DNA of 64,000 nucleotides from Xanthomonas hydrangeae (lineage in GTDB: Bacteria > Pseudomonadota > Gammaproteobacteria > Xanthomonadales > Xanthomonadaceae): NCBI GenBank assembly GCA_905142475.1, contig LR990730.1, positions 2,418,001 to 2,482,000 of the forward strand, in the 5' to 3' direction. Below, in pieces: positions 46,176-59,757 of the stretch (the stretch's first letter is position 1; each line of letters opens with the position of its first letter). The notes below the pieces were generated by a model, which saw nothing but the letters and a program-made list of their open reading frames with translations, made no database searches and had not been told where the DNA came from. A program made the position numbers and the translations under genes.

Positions 46176-46449
46176 AAAGAGACGCTGGTGCGGCGAAAGA
46201 CACGCCGACAAGAGGCAGTGCAGCGGCGCCCCTGAATTTCTCGGCATCGGCGCGACGAGAGATGAGCTGCCCCAGATCAACAGCCGACCGGGCATGTTGT
46301 CACTTTGGCGCTTTGTCACTTTGGCGCTGTACAGACCTTATCGGCCCCAACTGTGATCCACGTTGTGCTTCGCTGGTGGACACGACAGTACGGGATTGTT
46401 GCGACGCAGCACAATATTTCACCTATTCATCACCTGCAGCTAGTTGATC

Positions 46450-46463
46450 TGTAAGCGTTTTCA
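46450..46463. promoter_or_regulatory. LacI-type operator O1
   Basis: TGTAAGCGTTTTCA fits the general LacI-family pattern TGTAANCGNTTNCA with a central CG. It mirrors the second site 46 bp away (centre to centre). It probably binds the LacI-type regulator encoded downstream. Confidence 0.7.
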
Positions 46464-46495
46464 TCGATGTGAAGATGGGGGTTTACGCCCTCATA

Positions 46496-46509
46496 TGAAA
46501 ACGCTTACA
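46496..46509. promoter_or_regulatory. LacI-type operator O2
   Basis: TGAAAACGCTTACA is the reverse complement of TGTAAGCGTTTTCA with no mismatch, 44 bp before the regulator start. Paired sites 46 bp apart suit autoregulation or looping. Confidence 0.72.
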
Positions 46510-46552
46510 GTCCGCGCCAGTTTTGGGAACTCGGTCGCGGAGGGCGACACGA

Positions 46553-47575
46553 ATGGCCAATGGTGCGGTCACCATCAAAGATGTCGCTCGGGAAGCACAG
46601 GTCTCCGTCGCAACGGTGTCGCGTGCGCTCAATGGGCACGATAACGTCGCCGGGCCGGTACGCCAGTTGGTGCAGGAAGTGGCTGCGCGGTTGCGCTACA
46701 GCCCGCATGCGGCGGCGCGTAGCCTCAGCAGCCGACGCACCCAGACCCTGGGCGTGGTGCTGCCGGATCTGTACGGCGAATTCTTTTCCGAACTGATCCG
46801 CGGCATCGATGGGGCGGCGCGCGCCGCCGGCCAGCACCTGCTGGTGTCCAGCTATCACGGCGACCCGGAAGCGCAGGGCAGGGCGTTGCAGTCCATGCGC
46901 GGACGCGTGGACGGCTTGCTGGTGCTGTCTCCCTACGCCGAGCAGCCGGGTTTTCTCACCGACAACCTGCCGCAGGCGCTGCCGACGGTGTTGATCAATG
47001 CGCATCTGCCCGGTGCCGATTACCCGGTACTGAGCATCGACGACCATGCCGGCGCCATGGCGATGACCGAGCATCTGCTGCGCGCCGGCCATCGACGCAT
47101 CGCCTTCATCGGCGGGCCGGTGCTCAATTTCGATGCGCGCGAACGCCTGCGCGGGTTCCGCGATGCGATCGCTGCGCATGGCGATCAAGCACAGGGTCTG
47201 GAATATCCGGGCGATTTCGACGAGGCCTCAGGTCACCGCGCCGGGTTGGCGATGCTGGCCGACGGCACGTTGCCGGATGCGGTGTTCGCCGCCAACGACA
47301 TGACCGCGCTGGGCTGCCTTTACGCATTCGCGCAGGCCGATGTCTCGGTGCCTGGCGATGTGGCCCTGGCTGGCTTCGACGATATTCCGCTGGCCCGTTT
47401 CGTCCATCCGGCACTGACCACGATGCGGGTCAGCATCGCGCACCTGGGCGGGCAGGCGATGACCCGGCTGATGCGGCTGGTCGAGCAGACCGGCGACGAC
47501 GACGGCATCCGCCAGTTGCTGACGCCCGAGCTGGTGATCCGCGCCTCCTGCGGTGCCGGCGAGCCTGGCCTCTGA
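46553..47575 (+). CDS. LacI-family transcriptional regulator
   Basis: 340 residues: an N-terminal helix-turn-helix (TIKDVAREAQVSVATVSRAL), hinge and a periplasmic-binding-protein-like sensor domain (GVVLPDLYGEFFSELIRGID, PDAVFAANDMTALG, VALAGFDDIPLA). The ATG at 46553 has a GGAGG sequence 10-14 bases before it. It probably controls the following carbohydrate genes in response to a sugar. Two LacI-type operators precede it and a third precedes the GH144-like gene. Confidence 0.93.
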   Translation: MANGAVTIKDVAREAQVSVATVSRALNGHDNVAGPVRQLVQEVAARLRYSPHAAARSLSSRRTQTLGVVLPDLYGEFFSELIRGIDGAARAAGQHLLVSSYHGDPEAQGRALQSMRGRVDGLLVLSPYAEQPGFLTDNLPQALPTVLINAHLPGADYPVLSIDDHAGAMAMTEHLLRAGHRRIAFIGGPVLNFDARERLRGFRDAIAAHGDQAQGLEYPGDFDEASGHRAGLAMLADGTLPDAVFAANDMTALGCLYAFAQADVSVPGDVALAGFDDIPLARFVHPALTTMRVSIAHLGGQAMTRLMRLVEQTGDDDGIRQLLTPELVIRASCGAGEPGL

Positions 47576-47726
47576 CTCAATTCGCTGCTGATCCATTCGG
47601 TCCTGACCTTTGTCTGGCCACTGACCTCTTCGCGGACGTTCTGTCCGCTCCCGCTGCCCCCGCAGCGGTCGTTCCTGCAAGACGCAACGCCACAACAACA
47701 CTCTGTACCGATCCCTGGAGGGACCA

Positions 47727-50714
47727 ATGCGCCACCACAACCCCCATTCCGCCAGTCCGGCGCGCAAGCTGCTCAGCTGCGCCCTGGCCAGTTGCCTGCT
47801 GCTGGGCGCCGCACCGGCCTTCGCGCAGAGTGCTGCCGCGACCATCCGCGGCCAGGTCACCGTCGACTCCGCACCTGCCACCCAGGCCCAGGTCACCGCG
47901 ACCAACCTCGCCACCGGTCTGACCCGCACCGTACAGGTCAGCAATGGCGGCTATTCGCTCGGCGGCCTGCCGCCGGGGTCGTACCGTCTGGACGTCACCG
48001 CCAATGGCCAGACCACCTCGCAGAACGTCACCGTGCAGGTCGGCCAGACCGCCACCCTGAATCTGGGCGTCGGCGGCGAACCCGCCACGGCCGACGGTGG
48101 TAACGCCACCACGCTGGATGCGGTGCAGGTCAAGGCGCCGCCGGTGCTGGTGGAAACCCGCACCTCCGAGAACGCCACGTATATCTCCAACGTGCAGATC
48201 CAGAACCTGCCGCGTGCCACGCGCAACTTCCTGGAACTGGCCGACACCGTGCCGAACGTGCAGTTCACCCGCGATGCCAACGGCACCACCAAGGTCCGTT
48301 CGGGCGCTACCTCGGCCGAAGGCACCAACGTCTACATCGACGGCGTGAGCCAGAAGAACTACGTGCTGACCGGCGGCGTCAGCGGCCAGGATTCCAGCCG
48401 CGGCAACCCGTTCCCGCAGTCGGCGATCGGCGAGTACAAGGTCATCACTTCGAACTACAAGGCCGAGTTCGACCAGGTCAGCGGCGCGGCCATCGTGGCC
48501 TCGTCCAAGTCCGGCACCAACGATTTCCACGGCAGCTTCTTCTGGGACACCAGCAACGACGGCTGGCGCGAAGAGAGCCCGTTGGAAAAGCGCGCCGGCG
48601 TGCGCGACGACTTCGAAGAGACCCAGTACGGCGCCACCTTCAGCGGCCCGATCCTCAAGGACAAGGCGCATTTCTTCATCGCCTATGAAGCCAAGGAATA
48701 CACCACCCCGAACGTGGTGATCCCGGGTTCGATCTATTCCGATCGCGTCGACCAGTTGCCTGCGCAGCTGCAGCCGCTGGTGGCCACCTACAGCACCCCA
48801 TTCAAGGAAGACCTGTACTTCGCCAAGATCGACTGGACCATCGGCGACAACAACCTGTTCGAGCTGAGCGGCAAGTACCGCAAGGAAGACGAGCTCAACG
48901 ACGTCGGCGGCACCTCGACCTTCGAGCACGGCAGCATCAACGGCCAGGAAGAAAAGCGCGCCAACCTGCGCTGGCAGTACAGCGGTGCCAACTTCCTAAA
49001 CGAAGCCAACCTCAGCTACGAGAGCGCGTTCTGGAACCAGGCGCCGATCAACAACGGCACCGGTTATGTGTTGAGTTATGCACCAGTACGCGGCATCGAG
49101 GACGAAGTGCTGTCCGCAGGCGCAGGCAGCAGCTTCCAGCGCAAGGGTCAGAAGGGCTGGACCTTCCAGGACGATTTGACCTTGAACAGCCTGGAATGGC
49201 ACGGCGCGCACACCGTCAAGATGGGCGTGAAGTTCAAGAGCATCGATCTGAACTCCACCCAGTTCAACCCGGCCAACCCGCAGTACTACTACAACATCCT
49301 CAGCGACATCGAAACGCCATACCGGGTGCGCTTCGGTGCGCCGCTGGTGGAAGGTGGCGGCTCGGTGGTGTCCAAGAACAAGCAGTACGGCATCTACCTG
49401 CAGGACGACTGGGAGGTCAACGAGCACTGGACCCTGAACCTGGGCGTGCGCTACGACTACGAAGAGTCCCCGGCGTTTCTGGACTTCGTGACCCCGTCCG
49501 ACGTCGCCGGTGCACTGCAGAACTGGCCCAACCTTCAAAACGCCAACTACAACATCAACGACTTCATCAGTACCGGCAACAACCGCAAGGCGTTCAAGAA
49601 CGCCTGGCAGCCGCGCCTGGGTGCCTCCTACGATCTGTTCGGCGATCAGGCGCATGTGATCTACGGCGGTGCCGGCCGTGCGTACGATCGCAACATCTTC
49701 GATTACCTGGCGTTGGAGCAGCTCAACAACTCCTTTAACTCCTATAGCTACTACTTCAACAACCCCGGCGCTCCCAACGCCTCAGGTTGCCTCGGCGACC
49801 CATGCACCGCATGGAATCCGGCCTACAGCACGCAGGAAGGCTTGAACACGTTGACGGCCAACAGCACCGGCGGCGGCGGTCGCGAGGTCTACCTGATCGA
49901 CAACAACATCAAGACCCCGTACTCGGACCAATACAGCATCGGCATGCGCAACATGGTGCCGCTGTGGGGCCAGGACTGGTACACCGATGTGACCTTGAGC
50001 CGTATCGAAAGTCATGACGGCTTCGCGTTCGTGCGCGGCAACCGTCTGCCGGACGGCTCGTTCTTCCAGCCGGGCACCACCTCCGGCTCGCCGAACGATG
50101 GTCCCAATGGCTACAGCGCCATCGTGCTGGGCACCAATGGCGTGGAGACCCGCAACAACCAGCTCGCCTTGCAGGTCGAAAAGCCCTATGACGAGGAATC
50201 CGGCTGGGGCCTGACCGTGGCTTACACCTTTTCCGATGCCAAGGAAAACCGCCAGTTCGGCGAGCATTACGCACTGGATCGCGAACGCGTCGAAGACTAC
50301 GGCTGGCGTGAGGCCGGCGGTATCGCCAAGAACCGTCTGGTGGTCACCGGCATCTACGAGCTGCCGTACGAGATCAAGCTGTCCGGCAAGCTGTCGCTGG
50401 CCAGCCAGACCGCGCGCTACGGCCAGAACTGCGTGGCCGGTAACGACCAGTGCTATATCGTCCAGTTCAAGCCGGACGGCACACTGGGCTACAAGGAGTT
50501 CAGCATCGCAGCCAATAAAGAATGGGATACCGGTGGCGGTGTCAAATTCAACGTGCGTGCGGATATCCTCAACGTGTTCAATTGGGTGAACTACGCCAAC
50601 TTCAACGGCGAAACCGGGACACTTGGAGACTTGAACACGGCTTACGGCACACCAACCGGTGTGCTGGCGTCGCCGATGCGTACCTTCCGTCTGGCCTTTG
50701 GCCTGAACTGGTGA
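47727..50714 (+). CDS. Oar-like TonB-dependent outer-membrane receptor
   Basis: 995 residues. Signal peptide (to about residue 33, ending APAFAQS), a carboxypeptidase-regulatory-like domain (about 35-110, ATIRGQVTVDSAPATQAQVT), a plug domain (TRNFLELADTVPNVQFTRD, TNVYIDGVSQKNYVLTGG) and a C-terminal barrel ending in Phe-Gly-Leu-Asn-Trp. Such receptors move oligosaccharides or other bulky ligands across the outer membrane using TonB energy. Its place behind a LacI regulator and before glycosidase and sugar-ABC genes argues for an oligosaccharide ligand. SD-like GGAGGG precedes the ATG. Confidence 0.92.
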   Translation: MRHHNPHSASPARKLLSCALASCLLLGAAPAFAQSAAATIRGQVTVDSAPATQAQVTATNLATGLTRTVQVSNGGYSLGGLPPGSYRLDVTANGQTTSQNVTVQVGQTATLNLGVGGEPATADGGNATTLDAVQVKAPPVLVETRTSENATYISNVQIQNLPRATRNFLELADTVPNVQFTRDANGTTKVRSGATSAEGTNVYIDGVSQKNYVLTGGVSGQDSSRGNPFPQSAIGEYKVITSNYKAEFDQVSGAAIVASSKSGTNDFHGSFFWDTSNDGWREESPLEKRAGVRDDFEETQYGATFSGPILKDKAHFFIAYEAKEYTTPNVVIPGSIYSDRVDQLPAQLQPLVATYSTPFKEDLYFAKIDWTIGDNNLFELSGKYRKEDELNDVGGTSTFEHGSINGQEEKRANLRWQYSGANFLNEANLSYESAFWNQAPINNGTGYVLSYAPVRGIEDEVLSAGAGSSFQRKGQKGWTFQDDLTLNSLEWHGAHTVKMGVKFKSIDLNSTQFNPANPQYYYNILSDIETPYRVRFGAPLVEGGGSVVSKNKQYGIYLQDDWEVNEHWTLNLGVRYDYEESPAFLDFVTPSDVAGALQNWPNLQNANYNINDFISTGNNRKAFKNAWQPRLGASYDLFGDQAHVIYGGAGRAYDRNIFDYLALEQLNNSFNSYSYYFNNPGAPNASGCLGDPCTAWNPAYSTQEGLNTLTANSTGGGGREVYLIDNNIKTPYSDQYSIGMRNMVPLWGQDWYTDVTLSRIESHDGFAFVRGNRLPDGSFFQPGTTSGSPNDGPNGYSAIVLGTNGVETRNNQLALQVEKPYDEESGWGLTVAYTFSDAKENRQFGEHYALDRERVEDYGWREAGGIAKNRLVVTGIYELPYEIKLSGKLSLASQTARYGQNCVAGNDQCYIVQFKPDGTLGYKEFSIAANKEWDTGGGVKFNVRADILNVFNWVNYANFNGETGTLGDLNTAYGTPTGVLASPMRTFRLAFGLNW

Positions 50715-50720
50715 GGTACT

Positions 50721-50749
50721 CGACCGCCCTGGCAGTGTCAGGGCGGTCG
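50721..50749 (+). terminator. Hairpin after the receptor gene, without T run
   Basis: A perfect 11-bp stem CGACCGCCCTG/CAGGGCGGTCG with a seven-base loop. No T tract follows, so it may be a weak or factor-dependent stop, or an RNA-stabilising element that separates receptor and hydrolase expression. Confidence 0.55.
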
Positions 50750-50786
50750 AACTCGGCGCCTGGATAGGGTAGGTTGGCGTGCGAGA

Positions 50787-50800
50787 TGTAATCGATTACA
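50787..50800. promoter_or_regulatory. LacI-type operator O3 upstream of the GH144-like gene
   Basis: TGTAATCGATTACA is a perfect 14-bp palindrome with the same TGTAA..CG..TTACA frame as O1 and O2. It lies 15 bp before the ATG of the GH144-like gene, so bound repressor would block the downstream operon. Confidence 0.68.
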
Positions 50801-50814
50801 CGAGTGGGGGGCGG

Positions 50815-52452
50815 ATGAACAGGGGCAGGACTTCGTATTGGTTGACGATTCCACTATTGCTGGGCGCGCTGGTGCTGGCGTCGTGCAAACAGGCCGAGGA
50901 ACCTAAGGTGGCCGAAAAGAAGGCACCGGTGAAAGTCATTCTGGTGGAAGCGCAGCTGCCACCCAAACCGGTCAAACCGCCGCTGCCGCCGTTGTTTTCG
51001 GACATCGAGCGTCGCACCTTCCAGTTCTTCTGGGACACCACCAACGAACTCAACGGACTGGCACCGGATCGGTTTCCGTCGCGCCCGTTCGCCAGTATCG
51101 CGTCTGTCGGGTTTGCGCTGACCGCGTATCCGATCGGGATCGAGAATGGGTGGATCAGCCGCAATCAGGCGATCGACCGCACCTTGACCACACTGAAATT
51201 CTTCCGCGACGCGCCAATGGGGCCGCAGCGGACCGGTAGGGCCGGGTACAAGGGCTTCTACTACCACTTTCTGGACATGCAGCAGGGCAAGCGTTACGAC
51301 AGCTGGGTCGAGCTATCCAGTGTGGACACCGCGCTGCTGATGATGGGCGTGTTGTTCACCCAGTCGTATTACAACGGCGAGGACCCGCGCGAAAAAGAAA
51401 TCCGCCAGATCGCCGACACGCTGTACAAGCGTGTGGACTGGCGCTGGCTGCAGCAGCGTGCACCGTTGATCTCGATGGGCTGGTTCCCCGAGAGCGGCTT
51501 CATCGATCACGACTGGATGGGCTACAACGAAGCGATGATGTTGTACATCCTCGCGCTCGGCTCGCCCACCCACGGCGTGGATCCGGATGCCTGGACCAGC
51601 TGGACCCGCACCTACAACAACGACTGGGGCGTCTACCAGGGCCAGGAATATCTATCCTTCGGCCCGCTGTTCGGTCACCAATACAGCCATGTCTGGATCG
51701 ACTTCCGCGATATCCAGGACCAGTACATGCGCGAGCGCGGCATCGACTACTTCCTCAACAGCCGCCGCGCCACCCTGGCCCAGCGCGACTACGCCATCGA
51801 CAACCCGATGAAGTGGAAGGACTACGGCGAGAACGTCTGGGGCCTGACCGCCGGCGACGGCCCGCAGAACACCAGCCAGGAATACCGGGGCGAGCAGCGC
51901 CAGTTCCGCCATTACTCCTCGCGCGGCGCCGGCCTGCGCGAGAACTTCGACGATGGCACCATCGTGCCGTCGGCGGCGATCTCCTCGATCGTGTTCGCAC
52001 CCGAAGTGGTGATTCCGGCTGCGGAAGAAATGCACAAGCGCTACGGCGACTTCCTGTATTCCAGCTACGGCTTCCTGGATTCGTTCAACCCCAGCTTCAA
52101 CTACGACATCCCGCTCAAGACCGGGCGCATGGTGCCGGACCGCGGCTGGGTGGCCAGCGACTACATCGCCATCGACCAGGGCCCGATCCTGGCGATGATC
52201 GCCAACTACCAGAACGAATTCGTCTGGACGGTGATGAAGAAGAATCCCTACATCCGCGCCGGTCTGGAACGCGCCGGCTTCACCGGCGGTTGGCTCACCC
52301 CCGAAGGCGAGCCGCAGCCGTTGCCCAAGAAGGACGAGCAGGCAGCCGCTGCCCGCTCGCTGGGCATGGCCGAGTCGCGCGCCGCCGCCGCCCAGGCCCA
52401 GCAGGACCCATCGCAGCGGCAAAACTCCACGCAACGCCCCAAACCCGAGTAA
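50815..52452 (+). CDS. Glycoamylase-domain (GH144-like) lipoprotein
   Basis: 545 residues. A lipoprotein signal ends in LVLASC (Cys about 29). The catalytic region (about 65-500) matches the Pfam Glycoamylase type: RRTFQFFWDTTNELNGLAPD, SWVELSSVDTALLMMGVLF, GWFPESGFIDHDWMGYNEAM and WVASDYIAIDQGPILAMIANY. This domain defines GH144, whose tested members cut beta-1,2-glucans; similar domains occur in cyclic beta-1,2-glucan synthases. The ATG at 50815 lies after operator O3; a GTG at 50779 would put the operator in the coding region. The C-terminal tail is Ala/Gln-rich. Substrate inferred only. Confidence 0.82.
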   Translation: MNRGRTSYWLTIPLLLGALVLASCKQAEEPKVAEKKAPVKVILVEAQLPPKPVKPPLPPLFSDIERRTFQFFWDTTNELNGLAPDRFPSRPFASIASVGFALTAYPIGIENGWISRNQAIDRTLTTLKFFRDAPMGPQRTGRAGYKGFYYHFLDMQQGKRYDSWVELSSVDTALLMMGVLFTQSYYNGEDPREKEIRQIADTLYKRVDWRWLQQRAPLISMGWFPESGFIDHDWMGYNEAMMLYILALGSPTHGVDPDAWTSWTRTYNNDWGVYQGQEYLSFGPLFGHQYSHVWIDFRDIQDQYMRERGIDYFLNSRRATLAQRDYAIDNPMKWKDYGENVWGLTAGDGPQNTSQEYRGEQRQFRHYSSRGAGLRENFDDGTIVPSAAISSIVFAPEVVIPAAEEMHKRYGDFLYSSYGFLDSFNPSFNYDIPLKTGRMVPDRGWVASDYIAIDQGPILAMIANYQNEFVWTVMKKNPYIRAGLERAGFTGGWLTPEGEPQPLPKKDEQAAAARSLGMAESRAAAAQAQQDPSQRQNSTQRPKPE

Positions 52453-52455
52453 TCC

Positions 52456-53838
52456 GTGCGCCTTTTGAAATTGTTGATACTGGCCGCCGCCCTGTGTGCA
52501 GGTGCGGCGGGATGCGACCGCGCCGACCCGGCCAAGACCACCGTGCGCTTCTGGGCCATGGGCAAGGAGGCCGAAGTGGTCGCCGAGCTGGTGACGGAGT
52601 TCGAGAAGCAGAACCCCGACATCCGCGTGGATGTGCAGAACATCCCGATGACGGCGGCGCACGAAAAATTGCTCACCGCCTTTGCCGCCGATGGCTTGCC
52701 GGACGTATGCCAGCTCGGCAACACCTGGCTGCCGGAGTTCGCTTTGCTGGACACGCTGGAACCGATGCAGCCGTACGTGGCGCGCTCCAGGATCGTCGAC
52801 CCGCAGGATTACTTCCCGGGCGTGTGGGACACCAATCTGGTCGACGGCACCTTGTATGGGGTGCCGTGGTACGTGGACACCCGGCTGCTGTTCTATCGCA
52901 AGGATCTGCTGCGCGAAGCCGGCTACAGCGAGATGCCCAAGACCTGGGCCGAGATGGAACAGGTGATGGCGGCGATCAAGCGCAAGGTTGGCCCGGACCG
53001 CTACGCCATCCTGATGCCGCTCAATGAATTCGAACAGCAGCTGTCGTTCGCGCTGCAGCAGGACGACCGCCTGCTGCGCGACCACGACAACTACGGCAAC
53101 TTCCGCGGCGAAGGCTTCCGCAAGGCGTTGGGCTTCTACGACACCATGTACCAGAAGGGCTGGGCGCCGAAGGTCTCCGAGACCCAGGTCTCCAATGTCT
53201 GGTACGAATTCTTCAACGGCTATTACGCGTTCTATCTGTCCGGCCCGTGGAACGTGCGCGAGTTCAAGCTGCGCCAGCCGCCGGGCATGGAGGGCAAGTG
53301 GGGCACTGCGCCGCTGCCGGGACCCAACGGCCTGGGCGCGGGTATCGCCGGCGGTTCCAGCCTGGTGATCTTCAAGTCGTCCCGGCACAAGGACGCCAGC
53401 TGGAAGCTGATCGAATACCTGTCGCAGCCGCAGGTGCAGGCGCGCTTCCACGCCATCATCGGCGACCTGCCGCCGCGTCGCAGCACCTGGAAGTTGCCCT
53501 CGCTGGCCAACGACGAACTGGCGCATGCCTTCGGCGACCAGCTGGAGCGGGTCAAGGCCACGCCCAAGGTGCTGGAATGGGAGCGCATCGTGCAGGAAAT
53601 GCGCCTGGTGACCGAGCGCGTGGTGCGCGGCGGCCAATCGCACGAGGCCGCCGTGCAGGAGCTGGATAAACGCGTGGACGAGATTCTGGCCAAGCGCCGC
53701 TGGATCTTCGAACAGGAGGGCGGGCATGTCGGCCCCGCTGGTGAATCCACTGCACCTGCTGGTGGGTCAGACGCACGACCAGCCGCGACGCCGGCCGCAG
53801 CGCCAGCCGCAGCAGCGGACAAGGAGGCAGCTCGATGA
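52456..53838 (+). CDS. Sugar ABC transporter solute-binding lipoprotein
   Basis: 460 residues from a GTG three bases after the previous stop. Lipobox AGAAGC (Cys at 20). The family 1 extracellular-solute-binding pattern is clear (VRFWAMGKEAEVVAELVTEFEKQNPDI, AADGLPDVCQLGNTWLPEF, GVPWYVDTRLLFYRKDLL). The C-terminal 45 residues form an Ala/Pro-rich tail. It captures an oligosaccharide in the periplasm for the two permeases that follow. Confidence 0.92.
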   Translation: MRLLKLLILAAALCAGAAGCDRADPAKTTVRFWAMGKEAEVVAELVTEFEKQNPDIRVDVQNIPMTAAHEKLLTAFAADGLPDVCQLGNTWLPEFALLDTLEPMQPYVARSRIVDPQDYFPGVWDTNLVDGTLYGVPWYVDTRLLFYRKDLLREAGYSEMPKTWAEMEQVMAAIKRKVGPDRYAILMPLNEFEQQLSFALQQDDRLLRDHDNYGNFRGEGFRKALGFYDTMYQKGWAPKVSETQVSNVWYEFFNGYYAFYLSGPWNVREFKLRQPPGMEGKWGTAPLPGPNGLGAGIAGGSSLVIFKSSRHKDASWKLIEYLSQPQVQARFHAIIGDLPPRRSTWKLPSLANDELAHAFGDQLERVKATPKVLEWERIVQEMRLVTERVVRGGQSHEAAVQELDKRVDEILAKRRWIFEQEGGHVGPAGESTAPAGGSDARPAATPAAAPAAAADKEAAR

Positions 53839-54719
53839 TGAAGCGCAATTCCGTCGCCGGCTGGGTGTTCGCCGCGCCCTCGATCCTGGTGCTGGGCATG
53901 TTCTTCGGCGTGCCGGTGTTCGCCGCGCTGGTGCTCAGCGTCACCGACTTCGACCTGTACGCGCTGGCCGACAGCAGCCATCTGCGCTTCGTCGGCCTGG
54001 GCAATTACATCGAATTGCTGCAGACGCCGCTGTTCTGGAAGTCGTTGTGGAACACCACGTACTTCGTGCTGCTGGGCGTGCCGATGTCGATCGGCGTATC
54101 GCTGGGGGCCGCATTGCTGCTCAACGCCAAGGCCTCGCGTTTCAAGGCACTGTTCCGCACCGCCTTGTTCGCACCGGTGGTGACCACGCTGGTGGCGGTG
54201 GCGGTGATCTGGCGCTATCTGTTCCACATCAAGTACGGCCTGGTGAACTTCGGCCTGAGCCACCTGGGCATCGCCCCGATCGACTGGCTGGGCGATCCGC
54301 GCTGGGCGATGCCGACCATCATGCTGTTCGCGGTGTGGAAGAACTTCGGCTACAACATGGTGATCTTCCTGGCAGGCCTGCAGGCGATCCCGCAGGACCT
54401 GTACGAGGCCGCGCGCATCGATGGCGCCTCGCGCTGGAAGCAGTTCCTGCATATCACCTTGCCGATGCTTGGCCCGGTGCTGATGGTGGTCGGGGTGATC
54501 ACCATCTCCGGCTACTTCCAGCTGTTCGCCGAGCCCTACGTGATGACCCGCGGCGACCCACTGCAAAGCACCGTGAGCGTGCTGTATTTCATGTTCGAGG
54601 AAGGCTTCAAGTGGTGGAACCTCGGCCGCGCGTCGGCGGTGGCGTTCCTGCTGTTCTTGATCATCCTGGCGGTGACCACCGTGATGCTGCGCTTCGGCCG
54701 CAAGAGGGATTTGATATGA
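53835..54719 (+). CDS. Sugar ABC transporter permease (MalF/UgpA type)
   Basis: 294 residues, six membrane segments and the EAA loop EAARIDGASRWKQFLHITLP. It overlaps the binding-protein gene (ATGATGA) and the second permease by four bases, so the three are translated in concert. No ATPase gene is present, so a shared MsiK-like ATPase encoded elsewhere is probably used. Confidence 0.93.
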   Translation: MMKRNSVAGWVFAAPSILVLGMFFGVPVFAALVLSVTDFDLYALADSSHLRFVGLGNYIELLQTPLFWKSLWNTTYFVLLGVPMSIGVSLGAALLLNAKASRFKALFRTALFAPVVTTLVAVAVIWRYLFHIKYGLVNFGLSHLGIAPIDWLGDPRWAMPTIMLFAVWKNFGYNMVIFLAGLQAIPQDLYEAARIDGASRWKQFLHITLPMLGPVLMVVGVITISGYFQLFAEPYVMTRGDPLQSTVSVLYFMFEEGFKWWNLGRASAVAFLLFLIILAVTTVMLRFGRKRDLI

Positions 54720-55552
54720 GTCGTGACGTCGGCCAATCGCGCTGGAATGCCGTGCTGATCAACGGTGGCTTGCTGGTGCTGGCCCTGGTCAGCCTGGCGC
54801 CGCTGCTGTGGATGCTGTCGGTGTCGTTCATGCCCACCGGCGAGGCCAGCCGCTTCCCCCCGCCGATGCTGCCCTCGGCGTTTACCCTGGCCAATTACCA
54901 TGAGCTGTTCGCGCGCACCGGCATGGCGCGCAACTTCGCCAACAGCCTGATGGTGTCCGGGCTGATCACGCTCGGCTCGCTGCTGATCAACACCATGGCC
55001 GGTTATGCGTTCGCCAAGCTGCAGTTCGTCGGCCGCGAGCGCATCTTCAAGATCCTGATGGCCGCGCTGGTGATCCCGGCGCAGGTGGCGATGCTGCCAT
55101 TGTTCCTGCTGATGAAGCAGCTGCATCTGGTCAACAACATCGGCGGGGTGGTGGTGCCGGCGTTGGCGACGGTGTTCGGCATCTTCCTGGTACGCCAGTA
55201 CGCGCGCAGCATTCCCGATGAGTTGATCGAAGCCGCGCGCATCGATGGCGCCAGCGAGATGCGCATCTTCTTCCAGATCGTGCTGCCGATGCTCAAGCCG
55301 GTGCTGGTCACCTTGACCATCTTCACCTTCATGGGCTCGTGGAACGACTTCATGTGGCCGCTGATCGTGCTGACCGACCAGGAGCAATACACCTTGCCGG
55401 TGGCGCTGGCGGCACTGTCGCGCGAGCACATCATGGACGTGGAATTGATGATGGCCGGCGCAGTGGTGACGGTGATTCCGGTGCTGCTATTGTTCGTCGC
55501 GCTGCAGCGTTACTACATCCAAGGTCTTCTGCTGGGGAGTGTGAAGGGGTGA
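54716..55552 (+). CDS. Sugar ABC transporter permease (MalG/UgpE type)
   Basis: 278 residues with six membrane segments and the EAA loop EAARIDGASEMRIFFQIVLP. It forms the transporter channel with the preceding permease. Its end overlaps the GTG of the large multidomain gene. Confidence 0.93.
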   Translation: MSRDVGQSRWNAVLINGGLLVLALVSLAPLLWMLSVSFMPTGEASRFPPPMLPSAFTLANYHELFARTGMARNFANSLMVSGLITLGSLLINTMAGYAFAKLQFVGRERIFKILMAALVIPAQVAMLPLFLLMKQLHLVNNIGGVVVPALATVFGIFLVRQYARSIPDELIEAARIDGASEMRIFFQIVLPMLKPVLVTLTIFTFMGSWNDFMWPLIVLTDQEQYTLPVALAALSREHIMDVELMMAGAVVTVIPVLLLFVALQRYYIQGLLLGSVKG

Positions 55553-58500
55553 AGCCAGTGTTCCTGCGACTGTTTGCCATGGCCGCTGTCGTCACGTCTG
55601 CGGGCGCGGCGCAGGCGCAGGAGCGCGTGCTCGACGGCTTCAACGACATCGGCGCCTGGCGCCTGGTGGTGTCCAACCAGGTCAGCGGTTCGCTGCGGCC
55701 GGTGGCCACCTCCTCCGGCGGGCATGCGCTGTGCCTGGACTACAACTTCAACGGCGTGTCCGGCTATGTCGGCATCCGCCGCAACCTGCCGATCGAATAT
55801 CCGGACAACTACCGCATCGGCTTCGCGCTGCGCGGCGAATCGCCGTCCAACGATTTGCAGGTCAAGCTGATCGATGCCAGCGGCGACAACGTGTGGTGGG
55901 TCAACCGGCCGGGCTTCAATTTTCCGAAGAACTGGACCACCGTCGGCTATCGCAAGCGCACTATCGAAAAGGCCTGGGGCCCGGGCCAGGACAAGCAGCT
56001 GCGCAGCAGTGCGGATGTGGAATTCACCATCTACAACAAGGTCGGCGGCAAGGGCTCGGTGTGCTTCGATCGCCTCACCCTCACGCCGCTGCCGCCGGAA
56101 GACACCTCGCCGTTGAAGGCCGAGGCCATCACCGACACCGCGCCCGCACTGGAACAACGCCTGGCCGACGGCAAACCTGACACTTTCTGGCTCAGTGGCG
56201 CGGTCAAGCAACAGACCGTCACGCTGGACCTGGGCAAGGTGCGCGAATTCGGCGGCGCGGTGGTGCAGTGGGTGCCCGGCCTGCAGGCCTCGCAATACGT
56301 GGTACGCGCCTCCAGCGACGGGCGTGGTTGGCGCGATCTGCGCACCGTCACCGCCGGTGCCGGCGGCACCGACTGGCTGGCACTGCCGGACACCGAGGCG
56401 CGCTATCTGCGTTTCGATCTCAAGGATGGCCCCAACTGGCGTTACGGGATCAAGGAAGTGCAGCTGCAGCCGCTGGCCTTCGCCGCCACACCGAACGATT
56501 TCATCAAGTCGCTTGCCGCACGGATGCCGCGCGGCAGCTATCCGCGCGGCTTTTCCGGCGAACAGCCGTACTGGACCATCCTTGGGTTGGATGGCGGCAC
56601 CGAGCAGGGCCTGATCGGCGAAGACGGCGCGGTGGAAGTGGGCAAGGGCGGTTTCAGCATCGAGCCGTTCGTGGTCACCGGCGGCAAGCTGCTGCATTGG
56701 TCCGACGTCAGCAGCGAGCAGAGCCTGCAGGACGATTACTTGCCGATTCCCAGCGTCGACTGGCACCACGACCTGATGAATTTGCGGGTGACTGCCTTCG
56801 TGCAGGGCACACCGGATCAGGCGCAGCTGGTCGCACGCTACCAGCTGCACAACACCGGCAAGGAAGCGCGCGACTTCACCCTGGCCCTGGCGGTGCGTCC
56901 GTTCCAGGTCAACCCGCCGGCGCAGTTCCTCAACACCCTGGGTGGCGTCAGCCGGATCGAGCAACTGGCCGTGGACGGCGCGCAGGTCAGCGTCAACGGC
57001 AAGCCGCGCGTATTCGCCGCGCAGCGTCCGGATGCCGGCTTTGCCAGCGCCTTCGACAGCGGCATGGACGTCAGCCATCTCACCGCTGCCACACCGCCGA
57101 CCATTACTCAGGTGAAAGACGAGACTGGTCTGGCATCGGGCGTGCTGTTGTATCGCTGGAAGCTGGAGCCTGGCCAACGGCGCGAGGTGGCGCTGGTGAT
57201 CCCGCAGACCGGCACCGCGCAGTTGCCGGCCGGCTTCGATGCCGACACGGCGCAGCAGCAGGTGGCCCAGCAGTGGCGCAGCAAGCTCGATCGCGTGCGC
57301 ATCAGCGTTCCGGCCGAAGGCAAGCCGGTGGTCGACACCTTGCGCACCGCACTGGCGCATATGTTGATCTCGCGCATCGGCCCGCGCCTGCAGCCGGGCA
57401 CGCGTTCGTACTCGCGCAGCTGGATCCGCGATGGCGCAATGATTTCCGAAGGCCTGTTGCGGCTCGGCCGCGAAGACGTGGTGCGCGAGTACGTCGACTG
57501 GTTCGCGCCGTATCAATTCGACAACGGCATGGTGCCGTGCTGTGTGGACGATCGCGGCAGCGACCCGGTGCCGGAGAACGACAGCCATGGCGAGCTGATC
57601 TTCAACATCGCCGAGTACTACCGCTATACCGGCGACAAGGCGTTCCTGGAAAAAATGTGGCCGCACGTCACCGGCGCCTACGACTACATGGAAACGCTGC
57701 GCGCCAGCGAGCGCACCGAAGAGAACTTCATGCGCAATCCGGCCTTCTACGGAATGATGCCGGTGTCGATCAGCCACGAAGGCTACTCGGCCAAGCCGGT
57801 GCATTCGTACTGGGACAACTTCTGGGCGCTGCGCGGCTACAAGGATGCGGTGATGCTGGCCGGCGCGCTCGACAAGCCGGACGAAGTCGCCCGCTTCAGC
57901 ACGGCACGCGACGAATTCAGTGGCGACCTGATCGCCTCGCTGGGTGCGGCGGTGCGCCAGCACACTCTCGATTTCCTGCCTGGCTCGGCCGAGCTCGGCG
58001 ACTTCGATGCGACCTCGACCACCATCGCGCTGGCACCGGGTGGCGAGCAGCAACGCCTGCCGCAGGATCTGCTGACCAATACCTTCGAACGCTATTGGAA
58101 GGAGTTCTCCGACCGCCGCGACAGCAAGCGCGAATGGAAGGACTATACGCCGTACGAATGGCGCAACGTGGCCGCGTTCGTGCGCCTGGGCTGGCGCGAC
58201 CGCGCCTGGGACGCCACCGCATTCTTCTTCAAGGACCGCGCGCCGCAACCGTGGAATCAATGGGCCGAAGTGGTCTCGCGCACGCCACGCACGCCGTTCT
58301 TCGTCGGCGATCTGCCGCATGCCTGGGTCGCCTCGGACTTCGTGCGCTCGGTGCTGGACATGTTTGCCTACGGACGCGAATCGGACGCCAGCCTGGTCAT
58401 CGCTGCCGGCACGCCGACGCGCTGGTTCGAGGGCAAGGGCATCGGCATCGCCGAACTGCGCACGCCCTACGGGCGCCTCAATTACACCTTGCAGCGCACC

Positions 58501-58716
58501 GACAAGCAGCTGGTGCTGCAGCTGCAGCCCGGCCTGATCCTGCCGCCGGGCGGGGTGGTGTTGCCGTGGCCGTACCAGGGCACGCCGGGCAAGGCCAGCA
58601 TCAACGGCGAATCGGCCGAATGGCAGAACGGCGAACTGCGCATTCACCAATTGCCGGCCAACGTGCAGATCGATGTGCCCAGCGCGGTGCGGCGGGCCGA
58701 GCGCGCCACGCAATGA
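55549..58716 (+). CDS. Secreted multidomain protein: jelly roll, F5/8 type C domain and (alpha/alpha)-barrel glycosidase-like region
   Basis: 1055 residues from a GTG overlapping the permease stop. Signal peptide (1 to about 23), a carbohydrate-binding-like beta region (25-180), an F5/8 type C (discoidin) domain (185-310), a beta-sandwich (about 320-590) and a helical barrel (about 594-930) with YSRSWIRDGAMISEGLLRLG, similar to the RD-containing motif of glycogen-debranching amylo-1,6-glucosidases. It probably acts on a glucan in the periplasm. I do not know a characterised homologue, and catalytic residues are unproven. Confidence 0.75.
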   Translation: MKPVFLRLFAMAAVVTSAGAAQAQERVLDGFNDIGAWRLVVSNQVSGSLRPVATSSGGHALCLDYNFNGVSGYVGIRRNLPIEYPDNYRIGFALRGESPSNDLQVKLIDASGDNVWWVNRPGFNFPKNWTTVGYRKRTIEKAWGPGQDKQLRSSADVEFTIYNKVGGKGSVCFDRLTLTPLPPEDTSPLKAEAITDTAPALEQRLADGKPDTFWLSGAVKQQTVTLDLGKVREFGGAVVQWVPGLQASQYVVRASSDGRGWRDLRTVTAGAGGTDWLALPDTEARYLRFDLKDGPNWRYGIKEVQLQPLAFAATPNDFIKSLAARMPRGSYPRGFSGEQPYWTILGLDGGTEQGLIGEDGAVEVGKGGFSIEPFVVTGGKLLHWSDVSSEQSLQDDYLPIPSVDWHHDLMNLRVTAFVQGTPDQAQLVARYQLHNTGKEARDFTLALAVRPFQVNPPAQFLNTLGGVSRIEQLAVDGAQVSVNGKPRVFAAQRPDAGFASAFDSGMDVSHLTAATPPTITQVKDETGLASGVLLYRWKLEPGQRREVALVIPQTGTAQLPAGFDADTAQQQVAQQWRSKLDRVRISVPAEGKPVVDTLRTALAHMLISRIGPRLQPGTRSYSRSWIRDGAMISEGLLRLGREDVVREYVDWFAPYQFDNGMVPCCVDDRGSDPVPENDSHGELIFNIAEYYRYTGDKAFLEKMWPHVTGAYDYMETLRASERTEENFMRNPAFYGMMPVSISHEGYSAKPVHSYWDNFWALRGYKDAVMLAGALDKPDEVARFSTARDEFSGDLIASLGAAVRQHTLDFLPGSAELGDFDATSTTIALAPGGEQQRLPQDLLTNTFERYWKEFSDRRDSKREWKDYTPYEWRNVAAFVRLGWRDRAWDATAFFFKDRAPQPWNQWAEVVSRTPRTPFFVGDLPHAWVASDFVRSVLDMFAYGRESDASLVIAAGTPTRWFEGKGIGIAELRTPYGRLNYTLQRTDKQLVLQLQPGLILPPGGVVLPWPYQGTPGKASINGESAEWQNGELRIHQLPANVQIDVPSAVRRAERATQ

Positions 58717-59732
58717 ATGCCGCAGCTCGACCGGCAGGGGCAGCGCTGGCGCGGCGACGTGCCGGATGGCCGGTCGTGATGCTGGCGCTGCTGCCGTGCT
58801 TTGTTGCTGTACAAGCAAAGCAGCCCGCCCACGCTGTGCAGATCGCGCAACCCGTACAGGTCGTGGCCACCCACGCCGTGCAGGCCGCGCAGCCCGCACG
58901 GGTCGACAAAACTGATCGCCCGGCACGCGTTTCCCAGACAGTGCAGCCGCCGAGCGCGGGGCAGCGCGAAATGACCCTGGTCACGCTCAATCTGCATCAC
59001 GACCGCGAAGACTGGCCGGCACGTCGCGCCTACATCGCCAAACAGCTCAAGCAACTGGCGCCGGATGTGATCGCGCTGCAGGAAGTGATCGAACGCCGCG
59101 GCAGCGTGGAAAACCAGGCCGCCTGGCTGGCACGCAAGCTCGGGTACGAGTACACCTTCGCCTCGGTCGATCCGGTCGGCGCGCCCAAGCGCTACGGCAA
59201 TGCCCTGTTGAGTCGGCGCAAGGTGCTGACCATGCATCAGCGCCTGCTGCAGCCCTTGGACGATTACCGCGTCGCCGCGCATCTGCAGGTCGATGTCGAT
59301 GGCCAGCCGGTCAACGTCTATGTCACCCATCTCAACGAGCGCGCCGATGCACGCGGCACCGCCACGCGCACGCGCCAGGTTGCCGACCTGCTGGACTTCA
59401 TTGCCTCCAACAGCGACCAAGCACCTGTCGTGATCGGCGGCGATTTCAACACCGCCGCCGATGCCCTCGATCTGGAAGCGCTACGCAAGGGCTACGGCGA
59501 CAGCTACGGCAGCGTGCATCGCAACAGCGACGCCACGGTCAGCACCTTGAACATGCACGTGTTCGACAAGCCGGCACGGATCGACCACGTGTTCTTCCAG
59601 CAGAACCGCCTGCTGGCGCGCGAAGCGCGCATCCTGTTCGACACCCCGTATGCCGAAGGCCGCTGGGCCTCGGACCACTACGGCGTGTGGGTACGCCTGC
59701 AGCTAGCACCAGGCGCACCTGCCGCCCCGTAA
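58713..59732 (+). CDS. Endonuclease/exonuclease/phosphatase-family secreted protein
   Basis: 339 residues. A long N-terminal region with a signal-like hydrophobic segment and a Val/Gln/Ala-rich linker (to about residue 85) precedes the EEP domain: LVTLNLHHDREDWPARR, ALQEVIERRG, VVIGGDFNTAADALD, ARIDHVFFQ and SDHYGVWVRL. The family includes nucleases, sphingomyelinases and phosphodiesterases. It overlaps the upstream gene (ATGA), so it belongs to the locus. It could remove phosphate-containing substituents from a polysaccharide, but that is speculation. Confidence 0.84.
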   Translation: MNAAARPAGAALARRRAGWPVVMLALLPCFVAVQAKQPAHAVQIAQPVQVVATHAVQAAQPARVDKTDRPARVSQTVQPPSAGQREMTLVTLNLHHDREDWPARRAYIAKQLKQLAPDVIALQEVIERRGSVENQAAWLARKLGYEYTFASVDPVGAPKRYGNALLSRRKVLTMHQRLLQPLDDYRVAAHLQVDVDGQPVNVYVTHLNERADARGTATRTRQVADLLDFIASNSDQAPVVIGGDFNTAADALDLEALRKGYGDSYGSVHRNSDATVSTLNMHVFDKPARIDHVFFQQNRLLAREARILFDTPYAEGRWASDHYGVWVRLQLAPGAPAAP

Positions 59733-59757
59733 CCTGGCGCGCGTGCTCCAGCTCTCG

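Follow-up and report, generated by a model that had tools for sequence, protein, structure and literature searches.

A 64,000-nucleotide stretch of the Xanthomonas hydrangeae chromosome (hereafter the window; C1:2418001-2482000 of a 5.58-Mb genome) carries eight plus-strand genes, nearly end to end between positions 46523 and 59732 according to the open reading frame (ORF) list and domain scan, which we regard with high confidence as a beta-1,2-glucan system. In our preferred explanation, which on balance is probable, the locus imports and degrades bacterial beta-1,2-glucan; the alpha-1,6-cyclised ring produced by Xanthomonas itself is most likely among its substrates. At its center is P1055, a protein of 1055 residues that belongs to no named family and very probably acts on the beta-1,2-glucan of this system. 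Whether it cleaves the alpha-1,6 bond is, judging from sequence, evenly poised.

The proposed pathway runs as follows. The glucan would enter through the TonB-dependent receptor, or might already sit in the periplasm. A glycoside hydrolase (GH) of family GH144 would cut its internal beta-1,2 bonds, an activity published for the Xcc ortholog. Exported P1055 would most likely remove the single alpha-1,6 bond, which is not known as a target of GH144. The sugar-binding protein would then capture the resulting beta-1,2-glucooligosaccharides for import through the two permeases, probably powered by an unlinked UgpC/MalK-type ATPase. Finally, a LacI-family repressor would control lacI and the receptor gene, the GH144 operon, the zwf-glk-pgl-edd/ugpC promoter region and perhaps a GH3 gene through one operator, and this shared operator would couple uptake to glucose catabolism.

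A conserved and regulated locus

That the locus is one real system, conserved and regulated, follows from observation. We compared the best 80 of 581 confirmed P1055 places (L023-L102), each fetched from at most 9 kb before P1055, so that some lacI genes are truncated. Of these 80 nearest loci, 78 retain the order GH144, binding protein, permease, permease, P1055, the two exceptions (L068 and L099) being cut contigs. The receptor is present in 72/80 and LacI in 70/80, while the gene of the exo/endonuclease/phosphatase-fold (EEP) protein is found in only 29/80 and is therefore an accessory member. An earlier note, made from the sequence alone, had read seven genes here as one system; the genes do lie where it placed them with the domains it expected, and the single system stands, although the genes number eight and the EEP gene does not belong to the core. 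Among the matches listed, the closest named P1055 record is from Xanthomonas hortorum, at 99%.

The GH144 protein ties the locus to its substrate. It matches PF10091 at E 1e-89 (300 bits against a cut-off of 27), and its best match in the Protein Data Bank (PDB) is 8XUL (XCC2207), over residues 28-557 with few changes; by its sequence it is the ortholog of XCC2207/XcSGL. XcSGL hydrolyzes beta-1,2-glucan, and its E239Q mutant was complexed with Sop7; its E239, F286 and Y367 are reported to define the SGL clan (PMC12102758). In the listed ORF these correspond to E251, F298 and Y379 in the 8XUL alignment, in which 8XUL itself has Q at the first. As the start codon, the ATG at 50815 fits better than the listed GTG at 50779, which is probably incorrect, because a LacI operator sits at 50787-50800 and because the XcSGL authors, too, chose the second Met. 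As enzymes, XcSGL and the GH144 protein of the window show no difference to us; the published account of XcSGL, in its available portion, treats it apart from the operon (PMC12102758). What the earlier note had called GH144-like thus deserves a firmer name than it was given, the protein being nearly identical to XcSGL and over the PF10091 cut-off.

The binding protein points the same way. Its best PDB match is its ortholog 3UOR, X. citri 'Xac-MalE', which was crystallized and, in the available entry, is listed without a known ligand. The second is Lin1841/5YSB (232 bits, residues 29-413), whereas the third reaches only 125 bits. Lin1841 binds Sop3-5 (PMC12369401), and by sequence comparison it is the nearest functionally known relative of the binding protein among PDB sequences. 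The locus thereby points to a candidate ligand for the crystallized 3UOR. Signal peptides and lipoprotein starts were judged by eye. By pattern, a lipobox is present in 60/83 GH144 proteins and 78/83 binding proteins; sorting of the lipoproteins from the residue after Cys was dropped, as that residue is not conserved.

Regulation extends beyond the operon. The pattern TGWNANCGNTNWCA occurs three times in the window, twice before lacI and once before the GH144 gene, against 0.16 occurrences expected by shuffles, and the sequence TGAAAACGCTTACA is found identically before lacI in 11 other loci. The strict form TGWAANCGNTTWCA has six places genome-wide and its reversed control pattern none. Outside the window, the fourth place lies between zwf (of zwf-glk-pgl-edd) and the gene of a MalK/UgpC-type ATPase, the fifth shares bases with the start codon of a GH3 beta-glucosidase gene, and the sixth, operator-like (L224:5451; C1:5314950 of the own genome), is without a gene linkable to it. 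Across loci, the strict operator is present around the GH144 start (-220 to +75) in 49/83 and before ugpC in 24 of the 37 that hold ugpC. A looser pattern that gave 28/37 ugpC sites was dropped, since four of the 28 were a different sequence. From these sequences we infer that one LacI protein binds all these operators.

The genes around the fourth operator provide what the operon is short of, namely an ATPase and glucose catabolism. In the own genome, a single block holds edd, pgl, glk, zwf and ugpC, and its operator lies about 59 kb past the window. In the flanks of the 80 loci we find glk (37/80), a UgpC-type ATPase (36/80), edd (32/80), pgl (32/80) and zwf (23/80), the glk and ugpC counts leaving out matches below 45% identity; in an annotated X. 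sacchari record, all five lie next to one another. The GH3 gene can be placed in the regulon only tentatively from its operator: the nearest PDB entry of its product is 4I3G, listed only as a beta-glucosidase and not known as a beta-1,2 enzyme.

Table 1. Genes and predicted LacI operators of the locus, in window coordinates
Feature	Position	Strand	Domains and remarks
LacI operator TGTAAGCGTTTTCA	46450..46463		upstream of lacI
LacI operator TGAAAACGCTTACA	46496..46509		13 bp before listed lacI start
lacI-family regulator	46523..47575	+	LacI HTH and Peripla_BP_3
Oar-like TonB-dependent receptor	47727..50714	+	CarboxypepD_reg, OMP_b-brl_4, TonB barrel
LacI operator TGTAATCGATTACA	50787..50800		before GH144 gene
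GH144 endo-beta-1,2-glucanase, lipoprotein by eye	50815..52452 (ORF listed from GTG 50779)	+	PF10091
ATP-binding cassette (ABC) sugar-binding protein, lipoprotein by eye	52456..53838	+	SBP_bac; 3UOR ortholog
ABC permease A	53835..54719	+	BPD_transp_1
ABC permease B	54719..55552	+	BPD_transp_1
P1055, 1055 residues, Sec-like start by eye	55549..58716	+	discoidin and barrel; no named family
EEP protein	58713..59732	+	PF03372

Whose glucan is degraded?

Considering that Xanthomonas makes such a glucan itself, does the locus feed on the glucans of others or recycle its own? In three genomes of one genus of another class, the gene order is that of the window, from lacI and the receptor gene through GH144, the binding protein and both permeases to P1055 (lacI being truncated by the end of the stretch in two); MdoG was not found in them, and their only PF10091 gene is the GH144 gene. 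A Croceibacterium plasmid likewise has GH3, receptor, GH144 and P1055. These four look like eaters of foreign glucan, and since the three genomes have all seven core genes without MdoG, foreign glucan can be food. The reading in which the locus chiefly turns over the cell's own osmoregulated periplasmic glucan, with foreign import secondary, is possible though we hold it the less probable one, as it sits poorly with these genomes, with the plasmid and with the receptor in 72 of the 80 loci. It draws support from MdoG, which is kept in all 24 relatives tested (24 of the 80 loci), and from six loci that want a full receptor upstream: L033 (a relic), L057 (weak), L036, L039, L061 and L102. All six retain GH144 to P1055, and their genomes all retain MdoG, although loci without a receptor may use another one elsewhere. 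Because relatives that lost the receptor retain the rest of the locus, recycling of own glucan is plausible, and the two uses can both be true. The locus with the weak receptor, its operon intact, is that of X. albilineans.

P1055 and the alpha-1,6 bond

P1055 likely represents a new GH family. Its discoidin models alone pass the Pfam cut-off, and the catalytic part stays under every Pfam and NCBIfam cut-off tested: 19.1 of 21 bits for GDE_C (PF06202, amylo-alpha-1,6-glucosidase; GH133), 30.9 of 820.7 for TIGR01577 (oligosaccharide amylase) and 18 of 24.5 for Bac_rhamnosid6H (PF17389, GH78). Thus, the assignment of both enzymes to families by hidden Markov models, proposed in the earlier note, succeeds for GH144 through PF10091 but not for P1055, which passes no catalytic-family cut-off. 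When nine diverse members are taken together, TIGR01577 matches all nine (best E 1.5e-13), the archaeal trehalase TreH1 profile and GDE_C eight each (best E for GDE_C 1.3e-5), and the GH95 and GH15 (PF00723) profiles four each (best E for GH15 0.0085); for the GH94 models PF17167 and PF06165, no match is listed up to E 10. The P1055 profile run against PDB sequences gave, besides carbohydrate-binding/discoidin-type domains, weak matches only, among them the GH94 enzyme 8BOU (E 0.007 over 87 positions). Relatives of P1055 were searched for in phage records, with no match.

Structure prediction gave a whole-protein model (pLDDT 83.4, pTM 0.82) and a second model of residues 310-1055 (pLDDT 83.6, pTM 0.87) that agrees with it; the underlying alignments were A2, with 32 of the 80 fetched P1055 proteins and that of the window, and A3, with 33 and part of that of the window. 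By our own reading of the models, P1055 appears to begin with an N-terminal beta-sandwich, which is followed by a CBM32-like discoidin domain, then by a beta-supersandwich with an (alpha/alpha)6 barrel, and to end in a C-terminal beta domain. The predicted supersandwich and barrel are the fold of GH15, GH133 and GH94 enzymes, with which P1055 shares that fold at 9-14% identity, under the cut-offs and with an extra N-terminal sandwich and discoidin domain. In Foldseek searches, the 50 rows shown per model have TM of at most 0.60 and 9-14% identity, a cyclic glucan synthase and a GH15 dextran dextrinase also ranking high.

Profile alignment by hhalign favors GH15 for the barrel alone. An 18-row barrel profile aligned with GH15 at 95% probability (E 2e-8, 326 columns), with the beta-1,2-oligoglucan phosphorylase SOGP at 75% and with GH94 at 11%, the reversed controls staying at 0.4% or below. 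Two hhalign runs against GH15 pair E907 with the first Glu of 'LLAEEY' and W755-D756 with 'IWE', and the W-x-R-D, W-D and E places of P1055 appear to line up with those of GH15. The Glu of 'LLAEEY' and the Glu of 'IWE' we take to be the GH15 base and acid, respectively. R627, D628, E676, D678, E744, W755, D756, D818, E907 and H924 are invariant in 18/18 sequences, down to the most distant one (24% to the window). The GH15-like profiles together with the invariance of D756 and E907 suggest from sequence that P1055 is an inverting hydrolase with D756 as acid and E907 as base. GH15 and GDE_C families act on alpha bonds.

Several observations weigh against this assignment. First, Bac_rhamnosid6H matches eight of the nine diverse members with a best E of 2.6e-6, lower than that of GDE_C. 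Second, Foldseek places GH94, a family of beta-linkage phosphorylases, above GH15 for both models, and the loops holding E744 and E907 have pLDDT below 50. Third, a smaller, 9-row barrel profile gave GH15 and SOGP the same 76% (over 280 and 83 columns, respectively), and the hhalign templates were unequal (nine sequences for GH15, three for SOGP and two for GH94), which favors GH15. Once the sandwich is added to the barrel, GH15 reaches 96.5%, GH94 95.5% and SOGP 72%. The earlier description of the protein as debranching-like therefore retains its weak GH15 and GDE_C matches, whereas no cut-off is reached, the alpha-L-rhamnosidase model matches on a par with GDE_C and the fold search puts GH94 first.

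A second line of evidence is the company that P1055 keeps. A class sample of 274 genomes holds ten carriers of P1055 at E 1e-20. Nine have it at full length; the tenth (G146, partial, 24% to the window) was left out of the nine. Its neighbors are SOGP domains in G091 as well as in G213, and a pair of MdoG genes in G174; in G196 it lies near GH94, MdoG, a binding protein, two permeases and an ABC ATPase; no SOGP- or MdoG-type neighbor was seen among the ORFs scanned around P1055 in G068 and G136. On a Methylosinus plasmid, a remote relative, at about 28% across the full alignment, is accompanied by SOGP, GH15 and an SbmA/BacA-like ABC protein; the P1055 of G091 likewise has an SbmA/BacA-like neighbor. 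By eye, two of the three SOGP-associated copies are without a signal peptide. MdoG is present in 9/9 full-length carriers against 33/265 other genomes (p 2e-8), and SOGP in 3/9 against 0/265.

The cyclization itself can be followed through OpgD, whose alpha-1,6-cyclase signature (GH186 clade 3) is W76, D343 and R477 (PMC11228985). The own OpgD, encoded elsewhere in the genome (L013), has all three. Scored with Tyr allowed at position 76, and after removal of three MdoG fragments (one from G260, two from G068), the signature is found in 7/9 carriers against 2/33 MdoG-positive non-carriers (51 proteins; p 4e-5). A phylum sample of 349 genomes holds nine with P1055 at E 1e-30, of which five have MdoG, two of them (G356 and G561) with the cyclase signature; as the MdoG scan covered six carriers and genomes already scanned, it gives no background rate. 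It is possible, somewhat short of an even case, that P1055 founds a new GH family opening or linearizing alpha-1,6-cyclised beta-1,2-glucans. This counterpart of OpgD would work alongside GH144 and an ABC importer in some genomes, with SOGP in others, and in a third setting beside OpgG/OpgD-type genes.

The association has exceptions, which weigh against the preferred explanation. The p-values of the class sample ignore kinship, the nine carriers representing six families. G174 and G196 carry P1055 without the cyclase signature, and G160 and G199 have the signature and no P1055 match. Among the 24 Xanthomonas relatives mentioned above, the signature is present in 15 and absent from nine, eight of which have a Y-type OpgD and one W-D-W; it has been suggested that proteins of the Y type (clade 4) could act as transglycosylases too, giving different products (PMC11228985). 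MdoG was not found in four of the nine phylum-sample carriers (G289, G380 and G564, the three genomes of another class, and G543, a carrier of a remote copy only), nor in the remote-copy genome G146. An exclusive link between P1055 and the cyclase was accordingly rejected, on account of the nine relatives without the signature and the four carriers without MdoG. In addition, cyclic glucan synthase-like PF10091 matches (E about 1e-17 to 1e-21) occur in 7/9 class-sample carriers and in neither G160 nor G199, so P1055 may track the cyclic glucan synthase instead of the alpha-1,6 cyclase, though the PF10091 count is without a background rate. To this is added the GH3 gene, since no beta-1,2 activity is known for the top PDB match of its product. 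The alpha-1,6-cyclised substrate proposed in the earlier note thus gains from the signature of the own OpgD, the co-occurrence and the neighbors in distant genomes, and is not proved.

Could P1055 instead be an exo beta-1,2-glucosidase or a sophorose-releasing enzyme that completes the work of GH144, with no alpha-1,6 activity? We consider this less likely, while noting the evidence that speaks for it: the GH94 enzymes first in Foldseek with a GH94-bearing cyclic glucan synthase high, the GH94 probability for sandwich plus barrel, the carriers lacking the cyclase signature, the frequent cyclic glucan synthase-like genes, and the fact that no beta-glucosidase was found among the core genes of the locus. 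Opposed to it are the barrel alone, which separates GH15 from GH94 (the GH94 template being shallow), the action of GH15 and GDE_C families on alpha bonds, and the genomes G091, G213 and Methylosinus (remote copy), in which P1055 adjoins an SOGP that already handles beta-1,2 bonds.

Further P1055 relatives were encountered along the way. Close relatives hold P1055-like genes of about 30% identity (L189:8543-11662, L190:8848-11967 and L191:8493-11594), with no neighbors of the window-locus type in the stretch seen, which form a separate clade with the Methylosinus copy. An X. sacchari match, L215:10001-13047, is split in four, and the table of the plasmid collection lists no gene for it. In two unrelated genomes, the SbmA/BacA-like ABC proteins that adjoin or lie close to P1055 and SOGP (L020:7929-9632 and L214:618-2408) are perhaps glucan transporters.

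Relation to known systems

Two known systems invite comparison. Listeria innocua lin1839-lin1841 (SOGP, GH3 and a Sop-binding protein) likewise takes up beta-1,2-glucooligosaccharides by an ABC importer with a homologous binding protein; there, however, a phosphorylase does the work, and a receptor, GH144 and P1055 are not named in the available portion of the account (PMC12369401). The genome of the window gave no SOGP_N match. The Xanthomonas sux CUT locus shares a TonB receptor, an inner-membrane transporter, a degrading enzyme and a LacI-type regulator with the locus described here, but employs a major-facilitator transporter for sucrose in place of an ABC importer for a glucan made by bacteria (PMC1790865). 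A TonB receptor, an inner-membrane transporter, a degrading enzyme and a regulator, the components by which CUT loci are recognized, are all present in the window locus. The plug domain of the receptor was not matched in the Pfam scan, and XCC2208 stands among the receptors without a canonical plug in a 2007 list (PMC1790865). XCC2208 is probably the receptor gene, by a locus tag adjoining XCC2207, that is, by numbering and not by sequence.

It is very improbable that the locus serves another glycan, such as maltose or trehalose, to which the 'MalE' label of the ligandless 3UOR might point, or plant sophorosides, in view of the published hydrolysis of beta-1,2-glucan by XcSGL (PMC12102758), of Lin1841 as the nearest functionally known binding protein, and of P1055 next to genes for SOGP or MdoG in genomes that have no GH144 adjoining it.

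How much of the beta-1,2-glucan system is new? Among the open-licence PMC papers searched, which may not include all earlier work, we found none on the locus as a system, no assay of P1055, nor any mention of the tags XCC2202-2206, XCC2209 or XAC2309-2311, which are matched to these genes by their numbers. The locus can be called undescribed, as the earlier note did, only as a system: the binding protein, GH144 and, going by its locus tag, the receptor have each been studied or listed singly, and P1055 is new. The cyclic glucan is reported to help Xanthomonas avoid immunity and infect, and a 2024 paper described its cyclase (PMC11228985); in the available portions of the literature on it we found no account of uptake or breakdown of the ring. 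For the question of ring breakdown, the locus supplies a set of genes, a regulator whose operators are mapped and an enzyme outside all named families.

The accessory EEP protein may strip a substituent off the glucan; it has no PDB relative at E 0.01. The 29 loci that bear it are all named Xanthomonas or Stenotrophomonas, except for that of [Pseudomonas] boreopolis (L040).

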